Of a DNA stretch of 64,000 bases, positions 44,342-60,536 are shown in pieces (within the stretch, counting starts at the first letter, position 1; every line of letters starts with the position of its first letter). Position numbers and translations under genes: made by a program. Under the pieces are notes generated by a model that had not been told where the DNA came from, ran no database searches, and saw nothing but the letters and a program-made list of their open reading frames with translations. Source of the DNA: Algoriphagus terrigena DSM 22685 (lineage in GTDB: Bacteria; Bacteroidota; Bacteroidia; Cytophagales; Cyclobacteriaceae); the NCBI RefSeq assembly GCF_000429445.1, contig NZ_AUBW01000012.1, forward strand, positions 62,001-126,000, written 5' to 3'.

Positions 44342-45097
44342 TTATTCACAAACAATTTGATTCTTAAATTTCACGCTGATCCGCTCGTAAGCATTCCAGC
44401 CTTTTCTCGGTAAAATCTCTTTATACAGCACTTCGATCCGTCTGAATTTGCTCTCGATATCCGACGCATCTCCAAACTCGATCACCTGCTTACCAACCTG
44501 CTGATGCAGCCGGATGTCGTCTTTTTTATTTACCTCCAACTCGGTCACCTGAGCGCTCCAAAACTCGTCCTTGGTCACAAAGCGGATCAGCGGCATCAGT
44601 TCCGGCATGGAGTCCACGCTTCCCTGATCCATGAGCTGCTCGGCATACTCTCCCTCCAGGATCAGTACCCGGCTCGTGTAAGTCGGAGAGGTCGGAATGA
44701 TCAATCCTTCCGTGGTGATGTATCCATCCGCTCCCATCGGTCTGGCGATTCGGGCTATCGGCTCGTGCTGGTGGATCTTCACTTTCAAAATCCCCTTGTG
44801 CCCGATCGATGCCTGCACAGACTTGATAAAAGGATGTCCGGCAAGCCGTGTTTCAACCGCTGACAGCGGAATCTCTGTCACCGGAAATCCAGCTTTCAAC
44901 TCTGGAAAAGCAGCGCCGATGATCTCACCAATCTCCTTTTCCTCCACGAAATAAACCCCACTCACAGCCTCCAAATCAATCTCCAATCCATCGTAGGTTT
45001 TCAGTTGAGCTTGTTTTTCCACAAACCCGATAAACCCAACCAGGACCAGGCAAAGGGTCAGGAATCCAAGTATCTTCTTCAGTCTAGCCTTCCTCAT
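44342..45097 (-). CDS. ftsQ: Cell division protein FtsQ
   Basis: A 251-residue bitopic membrane protein. A short cytoplasmic N-terminus (MRKARLKK) precedes one membrane helix (ILGFLTLCLVLVGFIGFV). A POTRA-type periplasmic domain follows (VYFVEEKEIGEIIGAAFP, RLAGHPFIKSVQASIGHKGILKVKIHQHEPIARI), then the beta domain. This topology and its position between murC and ftsA identify FtsQ despite low sequence conservation. The start overlaps the murC stop by ATGA. It links early and late divisome proteins. Confidence 0.9.
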   Translation of the reverse strand: MRKARLKKILGFLTLCLVLVGFIGFVEKQAQLKTYDGLEIDLEAVSGVYFVEEKEIGEIIGAAFPELKAGFPVTEIPLSAVETRLAGHPFIKSVQASIGHKGILKVKIHQHEPIARIARPMGADGYITTEGLIIPTSPTYTSRVLILEGEYAEQLMDQGSVDSMPELMPLIRFVTKDEFWSAQVTELEVNKKDDIRLHQQVGKQVIEFGDASDIESKFRRIEVLYKEILPRKGWNAYERISVKFKNQIVCE

Positions 45098-46500
45098 ACC
45101 GCCTCTGGTTTAGCATTAGAATTCATCCAGGCGGCGATGCCCGGCACCAACCGGTCGATATCTCCCGCGCCCATCGTCACGAGGACTTCGGGTTGGGATT
45201 CCTTCAGGTAGTCCATTACCTGCGCTTTGTTGATTAAAGTCTTTTTCCCGGTTTTTATCCCGTCCAAAAGCATCTCTGATGTCACTCCCGGAATCGGCAA
45301 CTCTCGGGCAGGATAGATATCCAGCAAGATCACCTCGTCCGCCAACGAAAGGCTTTCGGAAAATCCGGCTGCAAAATCCCGCGTCCGCGTGAACAGATGC
45401 GGCTGGAACACCACCGTCAGTCGCTGCGTCGGATACATCGCACGCACCGAGCTGAGACAAGCCTTGATCTCTTCCGGATGGTGGGCATAGTCATCGATAT
45501 AGACATGACCCGGCGCCGAGGAGTGAATTTCAAACCGGCGTTTTACACCGCGGAAGGATTTGACTCCCGCTCTGATCTGCTCCTCTGTTGCACCATGATC
45601 GACCGCAATCGCGATGGCGGCTAGGGCATTTTCCACGTTGTGGAATCCCGGAATATGAAGCTCCAGGCCTTTGATCTGCACTTTGGCGCCGATGTAGTCG
45701 AAGAGGAAAATCCCCGGCTTCGCAATAATATTCTCGGCATGAATCCCGGAAGATCTCAGCCCATATTCTCTGATTCCAGCGTTGATGCCTAGATTTTCTC
45801 CCAAGCGATACCATGCGTGGGATTGGATATAGAGCTTTCCCTTCTTGTCCAAAAGCTTGATAAAGTCCCTAAAACCATTCAGGATCGTAGCCTCGTCGCC
45901 ATAGATGTCCAAATGATCCGGATCTGAGCTGGTGACTACAGCTTCATTTGGGAAAAGCCGCAGAAAAGAGCGGTCAAACTCATCCGCTTCCACCACAACC
46001 AGGGTCGGCTCTTTGGATTTGCCCGGCAAGATCAGGTTGCTGTTGTAGTTCTGGGTGATTCCTCCCAAGAATGCTGCAACAGGTTTTCCGGCAGATTTCA
46101 ACAAATGGGCAACCAGTGATGAAGTGCTCGTCTTGCCATGTGTGCCTGCTACGGCGATGGTATAAAACTCTTTGGTGATCATGCCGAGCACCTCGGAGCG
46201 TTTCTTCATTTGATAGTGTGCCTCAAAGAAATTGAGCAACACGCTGTCTTTTGGAATTGCAGGCGTCCACACCACCAACACCTCATCCGGATCGGTAGTG
46301 AATTCAAAAGGAACGTCGGCGGCAGAGTCGACAAAGCTGATCAGCATGCCTTCTTTCTCCAGCTCCTCCGTCAAAGGCGAAGGGGTCTTGTCGTATCCCG
46401 CAACAGGATAGCCTTCATGTCGAAACCACCGCGCCAAGGCACTCATGCCAATGCCGCCGATTCCGAGGAAGTAGACCTTATTTATACCTTTGAATGTCAT
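45094..46500 (-). CDS. murC: UDP-N-acetylmuramate--L-alanine ligase
   Basis: A 468-residue Mur ligase that adds L-alanine to UDP-MurNAc, the first peptide step in peptidoglycan synthesis. The N-terminal UDP-binding motif is VYFLGIGGIGMSALARWF, the ATP P-loop is AVAGTHGKTSTSSL (about residues 110-123), and the middle-domain signature is VVVEADEFDRSFL. DYAHHPEEIKA is a MurC hallmark. The length is standard. It overlaps both murG and ftsQ by ATGA in the dcw cluster. Confidence 0.97.
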   Translation of the reverse strand: MTFKGINKVYFLGIGGIGMSALARWFRHEGYPVAGYDKTPSPLTEELEKEGMLISFVDSAADVPFEFTTDPDEVLVVWTPAIPKDSVLLNFFEAHYQMKKRSEVLGMITKEFYTIAVAGTHGKTSTSSLVAHLLKSAGKPVAAFLGGITQNYNSNLILPGKSKEPTLVVVEADEFDRSFLRLFPNEAVVTSSDPDHLDIYGDEATILNGFRDFIKLLDKKGKLYIQSHAWYRLGENLGINAGIREYGLRSSGIHAENIIAKPGIFLFDYIGAKVQIKGLELHIPGFHNVENALAAIAIAVDHGATEEQIRAGVKSFRGVKRRFEIHSSAPGHVYIDDYAHHPEEIKACLSSVRAMYPTQRLTVVFQPHLFTRTRDFAAGFSESLSLADEVILLDIYPARELPIPGVTSEMLLDGIKTGKKTLINKAQVMDYLKESQPEVLVTMGAGDIDRLVPGIAAWMNSNAKPEAV

Positions 46501-47621
46501 TTGACTAATTTTTCCAGTTCGTTTACGATAGCGTTGGCCGCATCCGGCTTCGCCAAATCCTTCATATTTTTTCCCAATGCATCCGCCAATTCAGGAGTTT
46601 GCATCAGTTCTTCGATCTTACTTTTCAATTGACCAACCGCCTCGGTATCCTTCAGCAGCAAGGCCGCACGATGGTTCACATACGCCATGGCGTTTTTGGT
46701 CTGATGATCTTCGGCCACATTGGGGGATGGAATGAAGATCACCGGCTTACCCACCAGGCTGAGTTCCGATACCGACAGCGCACCGGCCCGCGACACGATC
46801 ACGTCGGCAGCAGCATAAGCCAAGTCCATCTCGCGGATGAATTCCCTCAGATGAATGTGCTTCAGGCCAGACTCCTCAAGCTGGGCTTGCATGTCTTTGA
46901 AGTAAAACTTGCCACTCTGCCACAGCACCTGAAAGCCATCCGCGTCCAGCTTCTTCATATCCTTCAGTACCGCTTGATTGAGCGTCCTTGCTCCCAAAGA
47001 CCCTCCCAAAACAAGGATTGTCTTGCGCTCTGGGGTCAATCCAAAATGCTCAATCGCCTTTTCCTGCTTTCCGGACAAGTCGAGGATGTCTTTTCTCACC
47101 GGGTTGCCGGTGATTCGGATTTTTCCCGCAGGAAAAAACTTCTCCATCTCAGGATAGGCGACGCAGATTGTGTTGGCTTTTTTCGCCAAAAGCTTATTTG
47201 TAAGACCAGCGTAAGAGTTTTGCTCCTGCACCAGCGTAGGTATTCCTTTTTTTTGCGCAGCATAGAGCACCGGCCCGCTCGCATATCCTCCGACGCCGAC
47301 CACGGCATCCGGACGAAAATTCTTCACGATCCCAGAGGCAATCCTCAGACTTTTCAGAAGTTTGAAAGGAAAGCTCAGGTTGTCCAAAGTCAAGCTGCGC
47401 TGCAATCCAGCGACCGGCAGACCTTTGATCTGATACCCGGCTTCCGGTACTTTTTGCATCTCCATCTTTCCCAGAGCACCCACAAACAGAATCTCGCTGG
47501 CAGGATGTTTTTCCTTCCAGGCATTGGCAATGGCGATGGCGGGATAGATGTGTCCGCCGGTGCCTCCACCGCTGATGAGAATTCGATATGTTGCTGCTGT
47601 GTTGATAGCTTTTGGGTTTAT
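46497..47621 (-). CDS. murG: MurG glycosyltransferase with apparent ATA start
   Basis: This transferase adds GlcNAc to lipid I, making lipid II at the inner face of the membrane. The frame is open from a stop just upstream of 47636 and encodes the essential N-terminal motif ILISGGGTGGHIYPAIAIANAW. No ATG, GTG or TTG occurs before that motif. The first GTG lies far inside it (about 47483) and would remove it. The best start is ATA at 47621, whose ATAA overlaps the ftsW stop TAA exactly where other cluster junctions have ATGA, giving 374 residues (MNPKAINTAATYRI...). ATT at 47633 is an alternative. Further motifs are VGVGGYASGPVLYAA, VLGGSLGARTLN and VSRAGALSVSEL. Confidence 0.9.
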   Translation of the reverse strand: MNPKAINTAATYRILISGGGTGGHIYPAIAIANAWKEKHPASEILFVGALGKMEMQKVPEAGYQIKGLPVAGLQRSLTLDNLSFPFKLLKSLRIASGIVKNFRPDAVVGVGGYASGPVLYAAQKKGIPTLVQEQNSYAGLTNKLLAKKANTICVAYPEMEKFFPAGKIRITGNPVRKDILDLSGKQEKAIEHFGLTPERKTILVLGGSLGARTLNQAVLKDMKKLDADGFQVLWQSGKFYFKDMQAQLEESGLKHIHLREFIREMDLAYAAADVIVSRAGALSVSELSLVGKPVIFIPSPNVAEDHQTKNAMAYVNHRAALLLKDTEAVGQLKSKIEELMQTPELADALGKNMKDLAKPDAANAIVNELEKLVK

Positions 47622-48802
47622 GCTGTTCTCAATCTGTTACTAGCTCTGACTTCTTCCGCGGCCGAGGCACTAACTTCATCGGAATGATCGCCGCGGCTTA
47701 CGCTGAGGATAATGCCCAGCGCAGTGCCGGTGAAGACCAAAGACGTCCCGCCCATGCTCAAGAGCGGAAGCGGCAAACCTGTAATCGGCCCCAATCCCAC
47801 GGCGACGGCCATATTGACCAAGGCCTGGATCACCAGGGCAAAACTCAGCCCTGCGGAAAGTAATCCTCCGAAGGCTTTATTGGAATTGGCCACGATGCGC
47901 ATGCCCCGATAGAGCAAGGCCAGGTATAGGAATAGCACAGTGGCTCCGCCGACCATGCCGTATTCCTCAATGATGATCGCGTAGATAAAATCCGAATACG
48001 GGTGTGGCAGGGAATTTCGCTGCTCACTGTTGCCGGGACCTTTCCCGGAGATCCCCCCGGTGGCGATGGCGATGTATGACTGCTCCGCCTGAAAAGGAAT
48101 CTTGCTGTCATCCTCTTTCGACTCCCAGAAGGCCTCGATCCGTGACCAGAAGGTGTCTCCTCTTTGTCCGGTAAAGACCGCAATCGTCAGCCCCATCACC
48201 CCTACCATGACCACCAGCCCCAGGTATTTCACCGGCACTCGGCCGATAAACATGATCAGCAAGCAGGTGACCAAAAGCAAGATCGCAGTGGACATATTTG
48301 CCATCCCGATCAGACCGCAGATCACGCCGATCGCCAGGATGATCGGGAGAAAAGTGCCCGTAAAGTCCTTGATGTTGCTTTGGCCCTTGGCGAGCATTGC
48401 TGCCAGTGCGGCGATCAACGAAAGCTTCGCCAGATCCGAAGGCTGAAAGGCCTGATTGATCACCGGAATGGTCAGCCAGCGATTGGCATCGTTGATATTA
48501 GACCCGAATAAATAAGTAAACACCAACAGTGGAATCGACAAATACATGAAGAGACGTGCATAGAGCGCATACTTCCTGTACGGCATCTTATGTGCTAGCC
48601 ACATCACAAAAAGTGAGAGGAATACCAGAAACGAATGACGGAACAGGTACAATTCAGTATTGCCGCCTGCAGTCTTATATGCCAGTGTCCCTGTGGCCGA
48701 GTACACGACCAGGATACTGAACAAAGACAGCAAGATCACGATCGCCCAGATGATGGGATCGCCCTTAAACTGCTCGTCTATCCATGCCTTTAGCGCTGTC
48801 AT
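47618..48802 (-). CDS. ftsW: Septal peptidoglycan polymerase FtsW
   Basis: A 394-residue SEDS-family glycosyltransferase with about ten membrane helices, polymerising lipid II at the septum with FtsI. Typical segments are AFQPSDLAKLSLIAALA, the periplasmic loop SYIAIATGGISGKGPGNSEQRNSLPHPYSDFIYAIIIEEYG with its conserved acidic residues, and ITGLPLPLLSMGGTSLVF. The length is normal. It overlaps murD by ATGA. Its TAA stop forms the unusual ATAA junction with murG. Confidence 0.96.
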   Translation of the reverse strand: MTALKAWIDEQFKGDPIIWAIVILLSLFSILVVYSATGTLAYKTAGGNTELYLFRHSFLVFLSLFVMWLAHKMPYRKYALYARLFMYLSIPLLVFTYLFGSNINDANRWLTIPVINQAFQPSDLAKLSLIAALAAMLAKGQSNIKDFTGTFLPIILAIGVICGLIGMANMSTAILLLVTCLLIMFIGRVPVKYLGLVVMVGVMGLTIAVFTGQRGDTFWSRIEAFWESKEDDSKIPFQAEQSYIAIATGGISGKGPGNSEQRNSLPHPYSDFIYAIIIEEYGMVGGATVLFLYLALLYRGMRIVANSNKAFGGLLSAGLSFALVIQALVNMAVAVGLGPITGLPLPLLSMGGTSLVFTGTALGIILSVSRGDHSDEVSASAAEEVRASNRLRTA

Positions 48803-52833: not shown

Positions 52834-54942
52834 TTATCCTAAAATCAGATTTATCGTTGCATTTGATCCCAGCTTGGAGCCTGGAGCGAGCGATTGCCCG
52901 ACCACCCGGCCTTTGCCTTTGTAGTTTACTTTCAAGCCTTTATTCTCCAGGATGAAAAGCGCATCACGCAGCGGCATCCCCGCTACATCGGGCACCACGG
53001 GCTTTTCTGTGTCGTTCAGTTTCATTGCGAATTTCTCCGCAATCTTCGCCGGCATCACCCAGTCTTCGCCTGTAGGGCCGGCTACCTTGATTCCCAGTGT
53101 CTCAAAGATTCCCTGCAGCTCCTCGCTTTTACCCGCGCTGATGTAGGGCATCTTGTTGGTTTCGTCTTCCGCACGGAAGATCTTAGATTGATCCACCGGA
53201 TTCAGTTCCATGTCCAGGGCGTAGATGCGGTCCGCGATTTCCTTGAACACAGGAGCGGAAACATCTCCCCCATACGCAGCAAAGCCATTTGGGCTGTCGA
53301 TCACGACGATCATGCTATACTTCGGACGATCGGCCGGGAAGTAGCCGGCAAAACTGGTGTAGTACGTCTCGGTATATCGGCCGTTGACAATCTTCTGAGC
53401 GGTGCCGGTCTTGCCGGCAATGCTGTAGTTTTCGTTTAAAATATTTCGGGCGGTTCCTCGGGTCACGACGCCCTCCAGCAATTCCTGAAGTTGCTTTATG
53501 GTCTTTTCGGAAGCGATCTGACTACGCAAAACCTGCGGCTCGAATGTCTCCACCTGTGTATTTCCCCGTCCTACTGCCGTGACAAAGATCGGCTTCATCA
53601 TTACCCCGTCGTTTGCGACTGCGTTGTAGAAGGCAAGCGTGTGAATCGGATTCAGCTTCGATTCATAGCCGATGGAAATCCATGGAAGTGAGGTCCCGTA
53701 CCAGGTTTTTGTTCCCGGTTTTTTGAAAAACGGCTTCCCTTCGCCCGCCAACTGAAGATCAAACGGCTCGGCAAATCCCACCTTGTCCATGTAAGCCATA
53801 AACTTGGATGGGCTGGAGCCAAAGTGCAGATCGACGAGCTTGGAGATGGCTACGTTCGAGGATTTCTCAAAAGCTTCCCGGATAGTGATCGTTCCAAAAC
53901 CGCCGTTTTTGGCATCGTACATCGTCTGATTGTAGAATCGATGGGCGCCATTACCGGTCTCGATCTTCTCATTTAAGCTGATCTTGTTCTCTTCCAGCAG
54001 TGCCAGCATGGAGAGCAGCTTGAAAGTTGAGCCGGGCTCGGTACTTCCAATGTCTCCCACCGCATAGTTGTAGCTTTCGGAGTAGCCTATGCCGCTTTTG
54101 TTACGCTGCAGGTTGGACATTGCCTTGATGTGGCCAGTCTTTACCTCCATCACGATGACGGAGCCGAACGCTGCTTCTCGATCGGTCAATTGTCTTCTCA
54201 GCGCGGTCTCTGCGACATCCTGGATGTTCACATCCAAGGTTGTAAACACGTCGTAGCCGTTGTCCGGCTTGATGTCTTCAGCGTCAAAAACCGGCTTCCA
54301 GCTTCCGCCTGCCAGTCTTTGAAAAAGGGCCTTTCCGTCTTTTCCTTTCAGATAATTGTTGAAGCTGTATTCGATCCCGGCCCCCTGATCTTTTTCGTTT
54401 ACGGTACCGACTGTGCGGCTCGCCAGCGAATTGAAGGGGCGGTAGCGCTTTTCAACTTTCTCGAAGATGATTCCCCCACCCAATCGACCTTCGCGGAAGA
54501 TGGGCCAGGAAGTCATCTTTTGCATATCCTGATAGCCGATCTGCTGTCTGTTCAGCACGAGGTAGCGCTTCTTGTCGCCTCGGGCGTCTTGGATCATCCG
54601 CTTGTATGCGGTCGCTGACTTGTCTTTGTAAAATGCAGAAAGCTTTCTGGCAAGTGAGTCAATGCCCGACTTGAACTTGGCGTCCTTGGCCATGGTCGGA
54701 TCTATCGCCACGCGGTAAAAAGGCAAGCTGGTCGCCAGTAGGCTACCGTCCGTCGCATAGATATTTCCGCGTGTAGCTGGGACTTCGCGGAATTGAAAGT
54801 TTACCTGCTCCGCTTTTGCGCGCCATTTCTCTCCTTCCTTCAGCTGCACCACAGCGACCTTGTAAGGGATCGCGCAGGCAACCAAAGCAACCAGGATGAA
54901 GACCACCCTTACACGGAGCACTATGGAGCGTTTTATATTCAC
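52834..54942 (-). CDS. ftsI: Septal transpeptidase FtsI (class B PBP) with PASTA domain
   Basis: A 702-residue class B penicillin-binding protein that cross-links septal peptidoglycan. The start is GTG at 54942, in a GTGA overlap with ftsL, giving a short basic N-terminus and one membrane helix (VVFILVALVACAIPYKV). The pedestal domain is followed by catalytic STFK (in EPGSTFKLLSML), SSN (EKSSNVAISKL) and KTGT (IAGKTGTAQK). A single C-terminal PASTA domain (VVPDVAGMPLRDALFILENKG to the end) is present. It partners FtsW. Confidence 0.95.
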   Translation of the reverse strand: MNIKRSIVLRVRVVFILVALVACAIPYKVAVVQLKEGEKWRAKAEQVNFQFREVPATRGNIYATDGSLLATSLPFYRVAIDPTMAKDAKFKSGIDSLARKLSAFYKDKSATAYKRMIQDARGDKKRYLVLNRQQIGYQDMQKMTSWPIFREGRLGGGIIFEKVEKRYRPFNSLASRTVGTVNEKDQGAGIEYSFNNYLKGKDGKALFQRLAGGSWKPVFDAEDIKPDNGYDVFTTLDVNIQDVAETALRRQLTDREAAFGSVIVMEVKTGHIKAMSNLQRNKSGIGYSESYNYAVGDIGSTEPGSTFKLLSMLALLEENKISLNEKIETGNGAHRFYNQTMYDAKNGGFGTITIREAFEKSSNVAISKLVDLHFGSSPSKFMAYMDKVGFAEPFDLQLAGEGKPFFKKPGTKTWYGTSLPWISIGYESKLNPIHTLAFYNAVANDGVMMKPIFVTAVGRGNTQVETFEPQVLRSQIASEKTIKQLQELLEGVVTRGTARNILNENYSIAGKTGTAQKIVNGRYTETYYTSFAGYFPADRPKYSMIVVIDSPNGFAAYGGDVSAPVFKEIADRIYALDMELNPVDQSKIFRAEDETNKMPYISAGKSEELQGIFETLGIKVAGPTGEDWVMPAKIAEKFAMKLNDTEKPVVPDVAGMPLRDALFILENKGLKVNYKGKGRVVGQSLAPGSKLGSNATINLILG

Positions 54943-55322
54943 TTTTCTACCTCGATTTTGATCGGCGGTTGATTCAATTCATAGATGTCGAGCTTTGCAA
55001 CTCGCTTAGCCACTTCTGACTGCATGCTGCTTTGCATGTATTCTGCCTCCAGGGTGGTGACGTCCGCACGGAGATCCTCCACTTCCTGTTGGGCTTTTTC
55101 GATCTTGCGGGTCATGTTTTCCGTCCGGTGATTGCTGTAGATGTAGATCAATGCCAGCAATACCAAAAACCCAACGGGAGGAACCAGCTGCACCGGCACC
55201 CCTTCCCCCAAGATTCCTTTCACATCAAGCTTCTCTTCTATCCAGGTAAAAAGCGTCTTCCCCGGTCCGCTCTTGGGAGCGTTTCCGGCCTTTAGCTTTT
55301 TCTTGAAGGTGTTCTGACTCAT
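54939..55322 (-). CDS. ftsL: FtsL-like cell division protein
   Basis: A 127-residue bitopic protein. The cytoplasmic N-terminal region of about 45 residues is basic, one membrane helix follows (VGFLVLLALIYIYS), then a periplasmic heptad-rich coiled coil (ENMTRKIEKAQQEVEDLRADVTTLEAEYMQS). Sequence identity alone would not name it. Topology, size and the position between rsmH and ftsI identify the FtsL equivalent, which recruits FtsW/FtsI with FtsQ. It is coupled by ATGA to rsmH and by GTGA to ftsI. Confidence 0.85.
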   Translation of the reverse strand: MSQNTFKKKLKAGNAPKSGPGKTLFTWIEEKLDVKGILGEGVPVQLVPPVGFLVLLALIYIYSNHRTENMTRKIEKAQQEVEDLRADVTTLEAEYMQSSMQSEVAKRVAKLDIYELNQPPIKIEVEK

Positions 55323-58436: not shown

Positions 58437-60536
58437 TTAGTTATTGTCTTTCTTGAGTTCTTCTTTAAGCAACTTTTGGAATTCATCCATTTTGATCTGG
58501 TGTTCCTTTTGCCACGCTTCCATCTTTCGCTCGAACTCCTCCATCTTCGGTTTTTGAGCCGTCTCCCACTCTTTCATCTGTAGCTCAAATTCCTTCATCT
58601 TGGGTCCTTGGGCAGCTTCCCATTCCTTCATCTTCTGCTCAAACTCCTCCATCTTAGGCCCATTTGCAGCCTGCCACTCTTGCATTTTAGCTTCAAATTC
58701 CTCCATCTTAGGGCCGTTAGCAGCCTGCCATTCCTCCATTCTAGCTTCAAACTCTTTCATCTTTGGGCCATTTGCAGCCTGCCATTCTTCCATTTTAGCT
58801 TCAAACTCCTTGAGTTTCGGCTCAAAATCCTTTTCGAATTTTGCCTCCCATTCTGCTGAATTTTTCTCCCATTCCTTGGCAGCTTCTTCGGCTTTTTTAG
58901 CCCATTCTTTGGCGCTGGCATCCATCTTCTTTGCCCACTTTTCCTTTTCTTCCTTGCTCATTTTCGTCGTGTCAAAAGAGAAATTGAAGGGAGCCAAGTT
59001 CTGGTCAAATTCAAAATCAAAGTCCATATCCATCGCAGGCATGACGGGCATTACGAAGTCCATTGCAGGCATCGGAAATGTAGTCATGTCCATCGGAGCC
59101 ATAGGGGACATAGGCGCCATCACCGGCATGGTCATGGCAAAATCAAACGCAGGCATGGGTGCCAGGGCAAAGTCGGCCGGGAAAACAGGAGCCATTGGCA
59201 TATCCAGTTTCGGCATATTTTCATAGTCAAACGCCTGAAGATTATCCAACGCAGCCTTAGCCTTCGGAGAGAGCTTGACCGTATCACCTCCCGAGATCAA
59301 GAGATCTCCCTGGATTCGATAGGTCTCTCCTTCATCGTTGGTGAACACCATCGTGTGGTTGCCATCGGCAGAAGAGGGCGCTTTTGGCTCTGATTGCTTG
59401 GATTTTTTGATGGTGTCCTGGGCTGCGAAAGCTGAAAATGCAGGCTCAACTCCAACGACAGACGTTTTAGAGTTAACCGGACCTGTGTGGTTTGGGGCGT
59501 CTTGCTGGGCACTTGCCATCAGGCCGACGCTGAGGAATAGAGTAAGTAGCATGGGGATAGAGATAATAGGGGTTTGTGGATAGTTTTGGGATGGATAGCC
59601 GAGTATCCTTTTGATTCGTTGTAGCGTTGGATTCCGGTTTTTTCCGGCTGCCAAGGCCAGTTCGGGGGGATTTTGCTTCGCAAAATGGAGTACCTCAGCA
59701 AGGCTGGTTGCGAGTGTTTTGGGTTCAATGCCTGCTTTCATCACGAGATCGTCAGCGGCATTTTCCCTCAATTCTTTGACTGTTGTATTCATCCACCAGT
59801 AGCAAGGATGAAAGAAGAAAAGAACTTCCAGACCGGAAAGGAGCAGGTTAACGAGGTAGTCGTTCCGCTTCACATGCGCCAGTTCGTGAGCAATGATCGC
59901 TTCGAGCTGTGCCGGCGAAAGCTGAAAAAGCAATCCGGCCGGGAAAAGGATGACGGGTTTCAAAGTACCAAATGTCAGGGGAGAAGCTCCAAACGTACTC
60001 ACCCGGAGTTGCACCTCTCCATCGATCCCCATCTTGCCCGCCAAGCGGTAAAGAACTTTTTGCAGCTGGAAATCAGTAACCGGGCTGGATGATTTGCGAA
60101 GACTCCGAATCTCAGACAGACTGTTCACCAATCGGAACAAAAACAGGAGCGCTCCCAAAAACCAGAAGTTGACCAACAAGGGGATATTTTGCTCAATCCA
60201 AAAACTCGCCCGGTCGATACCGGATTCGATCCCAACTTCAGCTTGGAGAAGGGAAGGGTTGGCCAGAATACGCTGGAGATCCGCGCTAGAAACCATCGGC
60301 ACGGAAGATCCTGCTGGCTGATATTCATAGATAAAAGTACCAACAGACACAGCCAGAGAAAGCGTCAGAGCACCTACAGCCATGCCGTACTTGACGGCAG
60401 GCCGTGCGCGGTGCAGCACCTTCATCACCACCCAAAGCAAGGAGGCGATCAAAACCAGCTGCCAAAGCGAATGGACCAAGGTCCAGCCCAGCGCCTGAAG
60501 TAAATTATCGGGGATCCAGTCGATTAAAATTTTCAT
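58437..60536 (-). CDS. M56 (BlaR1-like) metallopeptidase with repeat tail
   Basis: A 699-residue membrane peptidase. The N-terminal part has about four membrane helices with the zinc site HELAH at 217-221 and the downstream ENAAD ligand motif near 258-262, as in BlaR1/MecR1. A fifth hydrophobic segment lies near 325-343. There is no penicillin-sensor domain. Instead, residues 441-504 contain 17 methionines among Pro, Ala, Asp and Phe, then a charged helical zone, then six 18-residue repeats (577-684, core EFExKMxEWxxAxGPKM). Family members cleave a BlaI-type repressor. It overlaps the BlaI gene by ATGA. The signal sensed is unknown. Confidence 0.92.
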   Translation of the reverse strand: MKILIDWIPDNLLQALGWTLVHSLWQLVLIASLLWVVMKVLHRARPAVKYGMAVGALTLSLAVSVGTFIYEYQPAGSSVPMVSSADLQRILANPSLLQAEVGIESGIDRASFWIEQNIPLLVNFWFLGALLFLFRLVNSLSEIRSLRKSSSPVTDFQLQKVLYRLAGKMGIDGEVQLRVSTFGASPLTFGTLKPVILFPAGLLFQLSPAQLEAIIAHELAHVKRNDYLVNLLLSGLEVLFFFHPCYWWMNTTVKELRENAADDLVMKAGIEPKTLATSLAEVLHFAKQNPPELALAAGKNRNPTLQRIKRILGYPSQNYPQTPIISIPMLLTLFLSVGLMASAQQDAPNHTGPVNSKTSVVGVEPAFSAFAAQDTIKKSKQSEPKAPSSADGNHTMVFTNDEGETYRIQGDLLISGGDTVKLSPKAKAALDNLQAFDYENMPKLDMPMAPVFPADFALAPMPAFDFAMTMPVMAPMSPMAPMDMTTFPMPAMDFVMPVMPAMDMDFDFEFDQNLAPFNFSFDTTKMSKEEKEKWAKKMDASAKEWAKKAEEAAKEWEKNSAEWEAKFEKDFEPKLKEFEAKMEEWQAANGPKMKEFEARMEEWQAANGPKMEEFEAKMQEWQAANGPKMEEFEQKMKEWEAAQGPKMKEFELQMKEWETAQKPKMEEFERKMEAWQKEHQIKMDEFQKLLKEELKKDNN
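58485..58808 (-). repeat. Six tandem 54-bp coding repeats
   Basis: These encode the six 18-residue repeats of the M56 protein (residues 577-684). The first three units are nearly identical in protein sequence, and the last two diverge, as expected for recent internal expansion at one end. Confidence 0.85.

Follow-up and report, generated by a model that had tools for sequence, protein, structure and literature searches.

Several bacterial genes begin with codons other than ATG, GTG and TTG (hereafter canonical). In Escherichia coli, Streptomyces and Staphylococcus aureus, AUU, AUC or AUA starts of infC, the gene of initiation factor 3 (IF3), limit initiation (excerpts of PMC5472188 and PMC13009471). 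According to the same excerpts, near-cognate starts lower initiation and are repressed by IF3 in E. coli and Streptomyces. Re-initiation without a Shine-Dalgarno (SD) sequence is also IF3-sensitive in E. coli (excerpt of PMC2268962). The AUA start of ccpN and the AUU start of cvfC1 in S. aureus are conserved, reduce the yield and depend on an extended SD (excerpt of PMC13009471). The Streptomyces operon gene sigR starts with GTC; its lower yield sets the stoichiometry to its neighbour, and gene finders misannotate it (excerpt of PMC5472188). For Flavobacterium johnsoniae, a Kozak-like initiation without SD at weakly structured start regions has been described (excerpt of PMC6847099), and a term search of the main text of that paper gave no AUU, GUG, non-AUG or murG. 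The present text deals with murG in the division and cell wall (dcw) cluster of Algoriphagus terrigena DSM 22685 (Cyclobacteriaceae), located in a stretch of 64,000 nucleotides (nt) of contig NZ_AUBW01000012.1 (positions 62,001 to 126,000), which is called the window and whose positions are used throughout. With a probability of roughly 0.8, this murG is translated from the near-cognate codon AUC at 47606-47604 on the minus strand, with a presumably low initiation that would throttle MurG and usually take place just behind the termination of ftsW.

Like infC, murG would use one of the codons AUC, AUU or AUA (collectively AUH). However, IF3 represses its own gene in the case of infC, and an extended SD is present at the S. 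aureus site (PMC13009471, in excerpt), whereas murG encodes a wall enzyme and lacks an SD. The infC of Algoriphagus itself appears to start at TTG: in 30/30 loci (L182-L211, of 57 matches) the canonical codon closest to the conserved EEPY is an in-frame TTG located 11-13 codons ahead of it, and infC is thus not indicated as a fellow AUH gene in the genus. In E. coli, the AUU start of pcnB reportedly limits the expression of a gene other than infC. Both sigR and murG are operon genes with a non-canonical start, but sigR has GUC and an experimentally demonstrated IF3 dependence (PMC5472188, in excerpt), while the start of murG is deduced from sequence. Conserved AUH starts are common to ccpN, cvfC1 and murG, yet murG is almost devoid of the SD on which the former two depend (PMC13009471, in excerpt): SD-like 4-mers were present upstream of 1/60 genus copies and 1/23 family copies with AUH, and no strong or extended SD supporting the weak codon was found in these sets. 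Conserved RNA structure at the start was essentially absent as well (RNAalifold, 59 distinct genus sequences, -1.5 kcal/mol). The host of murG resembles F. johnsoniae in phylum, lack of SD and weak start-region structure (PMC6847099, in excerpt). The near-cognate start as a device is already known. The open-licence literature searched (murG or Algoriphagus starts or coupling; non-canonical starts) contained no description of such a start in murG, nor of the device serving an essential wall enzyme throughout an SD-less family.

The murG frame is closed upstream by a TAA at 47637-47639 (minus strand, as are all genes and codons located below). From there it reads QIENS, I (ATA), NPKA, I (ATC) and NTAATYRILISGGGTGGH, and it contains no canonical codon before the glycine loop GGGTGGH (47550-47570), as the first-pass annotation had already observed. 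The first canonical codon of the frame is a GTG at 47483, downstream of the loop. The re-annotated coding sequence extends over 46497-47606, from the ATC at 47604-47606 to a TGA at 46497-46499, and encodes 369 amino acids, the first of which is presumably formyl-Met: MNTAATYRILISGGGTGGH. Upstream lies ftsW (47618-48802) with a canonical ATG start, whose TAA at 47618-47620 ends 11 nt 5' of the proposed murG start and is crossed by murG in another frame. Downstream, the canonical ATG of murC (45094-46500) overlaps the murG stop (ATGA). A further near-cognate codon, an ATT within ftsW at 47631-47633, is in frame with murG here, but most relatives do not share it in frame.

The product was matched by the MurG equivalog TIGR01133 (GT28) with 311.2 bits at a cut-off of 250.25, and both GT28 domains (PF03033 and PF04101) as well as the GGGTGGH loop are present. 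The PF03033 match starts at ILIS, and solved MurG chains align from the Y/R just ahead of ILISGGGTGGH (phmmer against PDB). The genome (5.78 Mb, rated 100% complete) contains a single murG, so that a second copy does not come into question. In the same phmmer search, the N-terminus of MurG (47480-47606) gave six pentatricopeptide-repeat entries covering approx. residues 7-45 with a best E of 1e-8; no stretch passes alone, and the matches are read as chance likeness.

For comparison within the genus, 61 murG copies from 60 genomes (59 that were sampled from a larger set and all contained murG, and G214; one genome has two copies; the window genome is G000) were aligned on GGGTGGH. Codon columns were numbered back from the first codon of the motif (first base 47570 in the window), column -12 thus being 12 codons before it. 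These copies are related, and counts therefore overstate their independence. At least five codons upstream of the loop, no canonical codon was found in 49/61 copies, of which 48 have frames closed by a stop and one lies at a contig end. Column -12 was occupied by ATC in 30 copies, ATT in 22, ATA in six, GTG in two (G030 and G038) and ATG in one (G032), and by no other codon, giving AUH in 58/61. The columns on both sides (-8 to -11 and -13 to -16) are variable in residue and codon. In the window, column -12 is the ATC at 47604-47606, five codons 3' of an in-frame ATA at 47621. Among the matches listed, the closest five are those of A. yeomjeoni (ATT in the start column), A. formosus (ATC), A. 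ornithinivorans (ATA), A. sp. AGSA1 (ATT) and isolate HF-Din22 (ATT). The scan of contigs for named loci covered the best 80 loci of a longer list. Two records of the comparison are unusual: genome G026 has two murG copies that differ and lie on separate contigs (L160, L165), perhaps from a mixed bin, and CAMDEU010000027.1 (L068), a metagenome-assembled genome (MAG) titled Spirosoma fluviale, has a murG 75% identical to that of the window, so its name looks wrong.

The position of this codon is fixed relative to the loop and not to ftsW. A start-like codon (ATG, GTG, TTG or ATH) was present 12 or 13 codons before GGGTGGH in 137/139 sufficiently long copies. This is not a matter of chance, since the other pairs of neighbouring columns tested had such codons much more rarely, namely 2-3 of 146 copies for the three pairs within codons 8-11, 30/115 for codons 14/15 and 22/111 for codons 15/16. 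The two exceptions were G060 with ATG at -20 and G244 with ATG at -14. The ftsW stop lies between -4 and 12 nt from column -12 in the 59 scored genus copies (two unscored), and its frame relative to this column takes all three values (34, 14 and 11 of 59), while the distance from the column to GGGTGGH stays constant. Column -12 therefore behaves as a start codon, and the sequence evidence for a start at this position is strong.

The search was extended to the family, where a match was obtained in 190/196 genomes. From these, 85 copies outside the genus were examined, covering 66 other genera (the 25 best copies and mostly one per remaining genus). A canonical codon at least five codons upstream of the loop was missing in 23/85 of them, compared to 0/40 copies taken from 14 further families of the same order (drawn from approx. 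205 such genomes with a match). Thirteen of the 23 have no inner canonical codon either. AUH at exactly -12 was found in 23/23 copies lacking a canonical start, but in only 2/62 with one; 59 of these 62 have their canonical start at -12 or -13. In 22 copies whose frame is closed, only one ATN or NTG codon is available between this stop and column -5, and it is always AUH at -12. In 19/67 sampled family genera, one murG copy or more was without a canonical start, and Belliella alkalica, for example, has ATC in the start column. Among the matches listed for further Bacteroidota, 66/68 loci (L073-L140, a few from the family) have a canonical start; the exceptions are the Cyclobacteriaceae record L115 and the Flavobacteriaceae MAG L114. 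The latter, with the frame *TIRKQLNILLSGGGTGGH, ATC at -10 and no canonical codon before the loop, is possibly a separate case.

The neighbouring genes served as controls under a lenient version of the start test, which covered dcw genes: 11 others in 40 genus loci, excluding five rsmH copies off the contig and late-beginning hits. All 376 scored copies have a canonical start, as do 82/82 scored murC copies from family loci. By the same rule, murG was without a canonical start in 25/40 genus and 22/85 family copies. ATG was used by 25/85 family murG copies versus 53/82 for murC (Fisher p 6e-6, relatedness ignored), the other 60 murG copies having GTG, TTG or AUH. A changed initiator tRNA was not indicated: a survey limited to the initiator anticodon-arm pattern, which we take to mark the initiator tRNA, brought up a single genomic site, and this is tRNA-Met(CAT).

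For 186 MurG proteins, trees were computed with FastTree from the sequence that begins at the loop, so that the start columns played no part. On the best tree, parsimony required 18 changes between AUH and a canonical start. With rooting and equal costs, these are 16 gains and two losses of AUH. The family copies that lack a canonical start are scattered across the tree. Within the genus alone, ten start-codon changes took place among five codons. The retention of AUH at the exact position across relatives suggests that slow initiation of MurG is favoured by selection. Selection for weak initiation is preferred over drift because AUH recurs in murG while its operon neighbours stay canonical.

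A mechanism may be proposed on this basis. The ordinary initiator tRNA (CAU) would read the AUC at 47604-47606, and initiation would be slow and sensitive to IF3. The weak codon would thereby cap the synthesis of MurG relative to FtsW and MurC. Ribosomes that have just finished ftsW, usually within 15 nt, would supply most of the murG initiations; the start lies within this distance of the ftsW stop in 59/59 scored genus copies and 15/23 family AUH copies. As the junction unites both situations known to be IF3-sensitive, an AUH codon and close re-initiation without SD, we infer an initiation that is fed by ftsW and capped by the weak codon. The steps of MurG dosage, IF3 and coupling are predictions, whereas the start position itself is well supported by comparison.

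Several observations weigh against this interpretation. A canonical codon is in frame in 12/61 genus copies, three of them at -12 itself. The other nine, from small genomes, have it at least 27 codons upstream inside ftsW; its places are not conserved, and all nine copies keep ATC at -12. Inner canonical codons within four codons of the motif occur in 28/49 genus and 10/23 family copies that otherwise lack one. When a gain was given twice the cost of a loss, a root with AUH followed by 25 losses was marginally preferred (29 vs 30), so that the direction of change is not settled, and only seven of the 18 independent contrasts lie on well-supported branches. The spacing from ftsW is 28-90 nt in 6/23 family AUH copies and 346 nt in two (possibly a misread ftsW end), and close coupling is thus not universal. 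Finally, control by IF3 is known from other bacteria only and would apply here by analogy.

The AUH codon might also be tolerated rather than selected. Coupling and context would then drive murG initiation, and the identity of the start would be free to drift. Such drift under coupling is possible, and the ten changes among five codons in the genus as well as the short ftsW spacing in most copies are consistent with it. Nevertheless, it is considered rather improbable: the other dcw genes of the operon, several of which overlap just as tightly, keep canonical starts, and the scarcity of ATG starts in murG extends to the family outside the genus.

The surroundings of the start codon were searched for features that could assist a weak codon. 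AUH is preceded by a pyrimidine at -2 in 71/81 and at -1 in 75/81 copies, compared to 9 and 12 of 39 copies with GTG or TTG and 10 and 10 of 26 with ATG. Pairing of a U at -1 is reported to occur. An extended anticodon contact, which these pyrimidines might suggest, was not supported by a tree-aware test, in which seven pairs gave no significance (median p 0.125 and 0.25, and 0.625 when U at -1 was considered). Inside the gene, codons 6-7 (Thr-Tyr) are frozen in the genus, with ACA in 60/60 Thr copies and TAT in 61/61. They are tied first of 198 invariant murG columns for absence of synonymous change. The 8-mer ACATATCG (47584-47591, nt +16 to +23 of the coding sequence) is found in 60/61 genus copies, and [AC]CATAT[CA]G in 72/85 other family copies. 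In many other genera of the family, CCATAT replaces ACATAT; Thr and Pro codons are both fourfold degenerate. The Thr or Pro codon at this place ends in A in 136/138 copies of genus and family versus 24/35 outside the family, a set that may include a few family records, while A-ending codons make up 25% of Thr and Pro codons in family murG bodies. ACATAT at +16 to +21 is thus possibly an element that acts at the nucleotide level and aids initiation.

Frozen early codons are, however, not peculiar to murG. In genus loci, codons 2, 3, 4, 6, 7, 8 and 10 of ftsZ are equally frozen (97% or more), and so are codons 1, 6 and 7 of ftsI, codon 6 of murC and codon 2 of ftsA. Among 12 genes, murG alone has a fourfold-degenerate codon (Thr, Pro, Ala, Gly or Val) at places 2-10 that is completely frozen, although rsmH, with a single early codon, comes near (94%, 16 copies). 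Since the start codons of ftsZ are frozen as well, the murG element may be an ordinary start-region constraint, and a general constraint of this kind is possible. A further-reaching proposal holds that murG of the Cyclobacteriaceae carries a dedicated device without SD, composed of AUH, often behind two pyrimidines, and the frozen [AC]CATAT[CA]G 15-22 nt inside the gene, with IF3 or the ribosomes terminating ftsW setting the output, and that it evolved about sixteen times. This proposal is doubtful, and its odds were lowered because of the frozen ftsZ codons.

Other start sites were weighed against the AUC at 47604-47606. The first-pass annotation had placed the start at the ATA 47619-47621, where it overlaps the ftsW stop as ATAA, a sequence that would have arisen from ATGA by a single G-to-A change. 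The ATAA is indeed present at 47618-47621, and overlaps of 4 nt are common in the cluster, although five were counted instead of the seven claimed: rsmH/ftsL, ftsL/ftsI (GTGA), murD/ftsW, murG/murC and murC/ftsQ. Of the genomes compared, however, only the window genome, G037 and G214 have this ATA in the murG frame. GCATAA is out of frame in six relatives (G033, G004, G022, G015, G058 and G056) because their ftsW stop is 12, not 11, nt from the start column, and the murG frame reads TAA there. Many other relatives have an in-frame stop one to four codons before column -12, and where ATG or GTG occurs near the start in the genus it sits at -12 and not at -17. A start at this ATA is therefore very unlikely. 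With the shared column at ATC 47606, 11 nt past the ftsW stop, the postulated base change loses its place too. What was retained from the earlier proposal is an essential wall gene without a canonical start close behind ftsW, a lack that the relatives share, and the idea of a weak start that could keep dosage low; the codon and the slip from ATGA were not.

An initiation inside strand beta-1, at a TTG or ATG that precedes GGGTGGH by three or four codons, would make use of the inner canonical codons mentioned above. It is even less probable: 21 genus copies, among them that of the window, and 13 family copies have no such codon. Column -3 is CTC in 25/61 copies, the residues T at -7 and Y at -6 are conserved, and beta-1 would be cut, since PF03033 and the aligned solved MurG chains begin there. 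It is hardly conceivable that frameshifting or the readthrough of a stop codon yields MurG as a fusion to FtsW. The two genes are adjacent, and the C-terminus of FtsW and MurG are both cytoplasmic, but the ftsW stop stands in all three frames relative to the murG start column, inspection by eye revealed no shared slippery site, and in relatives the start is a plain ATG, GTG or TTG in this column or directly beside it. A sequencing error or a decayed murG, although one base change could yield ATAA, was refuted by conservation and is excluded in practice, because the same gap is shared by 72 copies (49/61 in the genus and 23/85 in the family; not independent) and the single 369-residue MurG is intact in a genome rated complete.

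Two further features of the window were noted. The ftsI gene has a GTG start in its GTGA overlap with ftsL (54939-54948), and GTG was found in 27/30 scored ftsI copies of the genus; it is another weaker start kept in the same operon as murG. At 58437-60536 (minus strand) lies an open reading frame for a membrane peptidase that is presumably BlaR1/M56-like by its HELAH motif and whose long C-terminal tail abounds in MPxM and KMxEW-like repeats.

With AUC at 47604-47606 as the start of murG, one essential gene has gained AUH about sixteen times in one family, as counted by equal-cost parsimony, in a phylum without Shine-Dalgarno signals. This raises the question of how a ribosome that does without SD locates AUC. 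In these genomes, murG may be shortened or missed by gene finders limited to ATG, GTG and TTG. The related species offer a natural series of AUG, GUG, UUG and AUH at one column, which is suited to testing selection for weak initiation. If the dedicated device were to prove true, regulatory near-cognate starts would be used outside translation factors and regulators.

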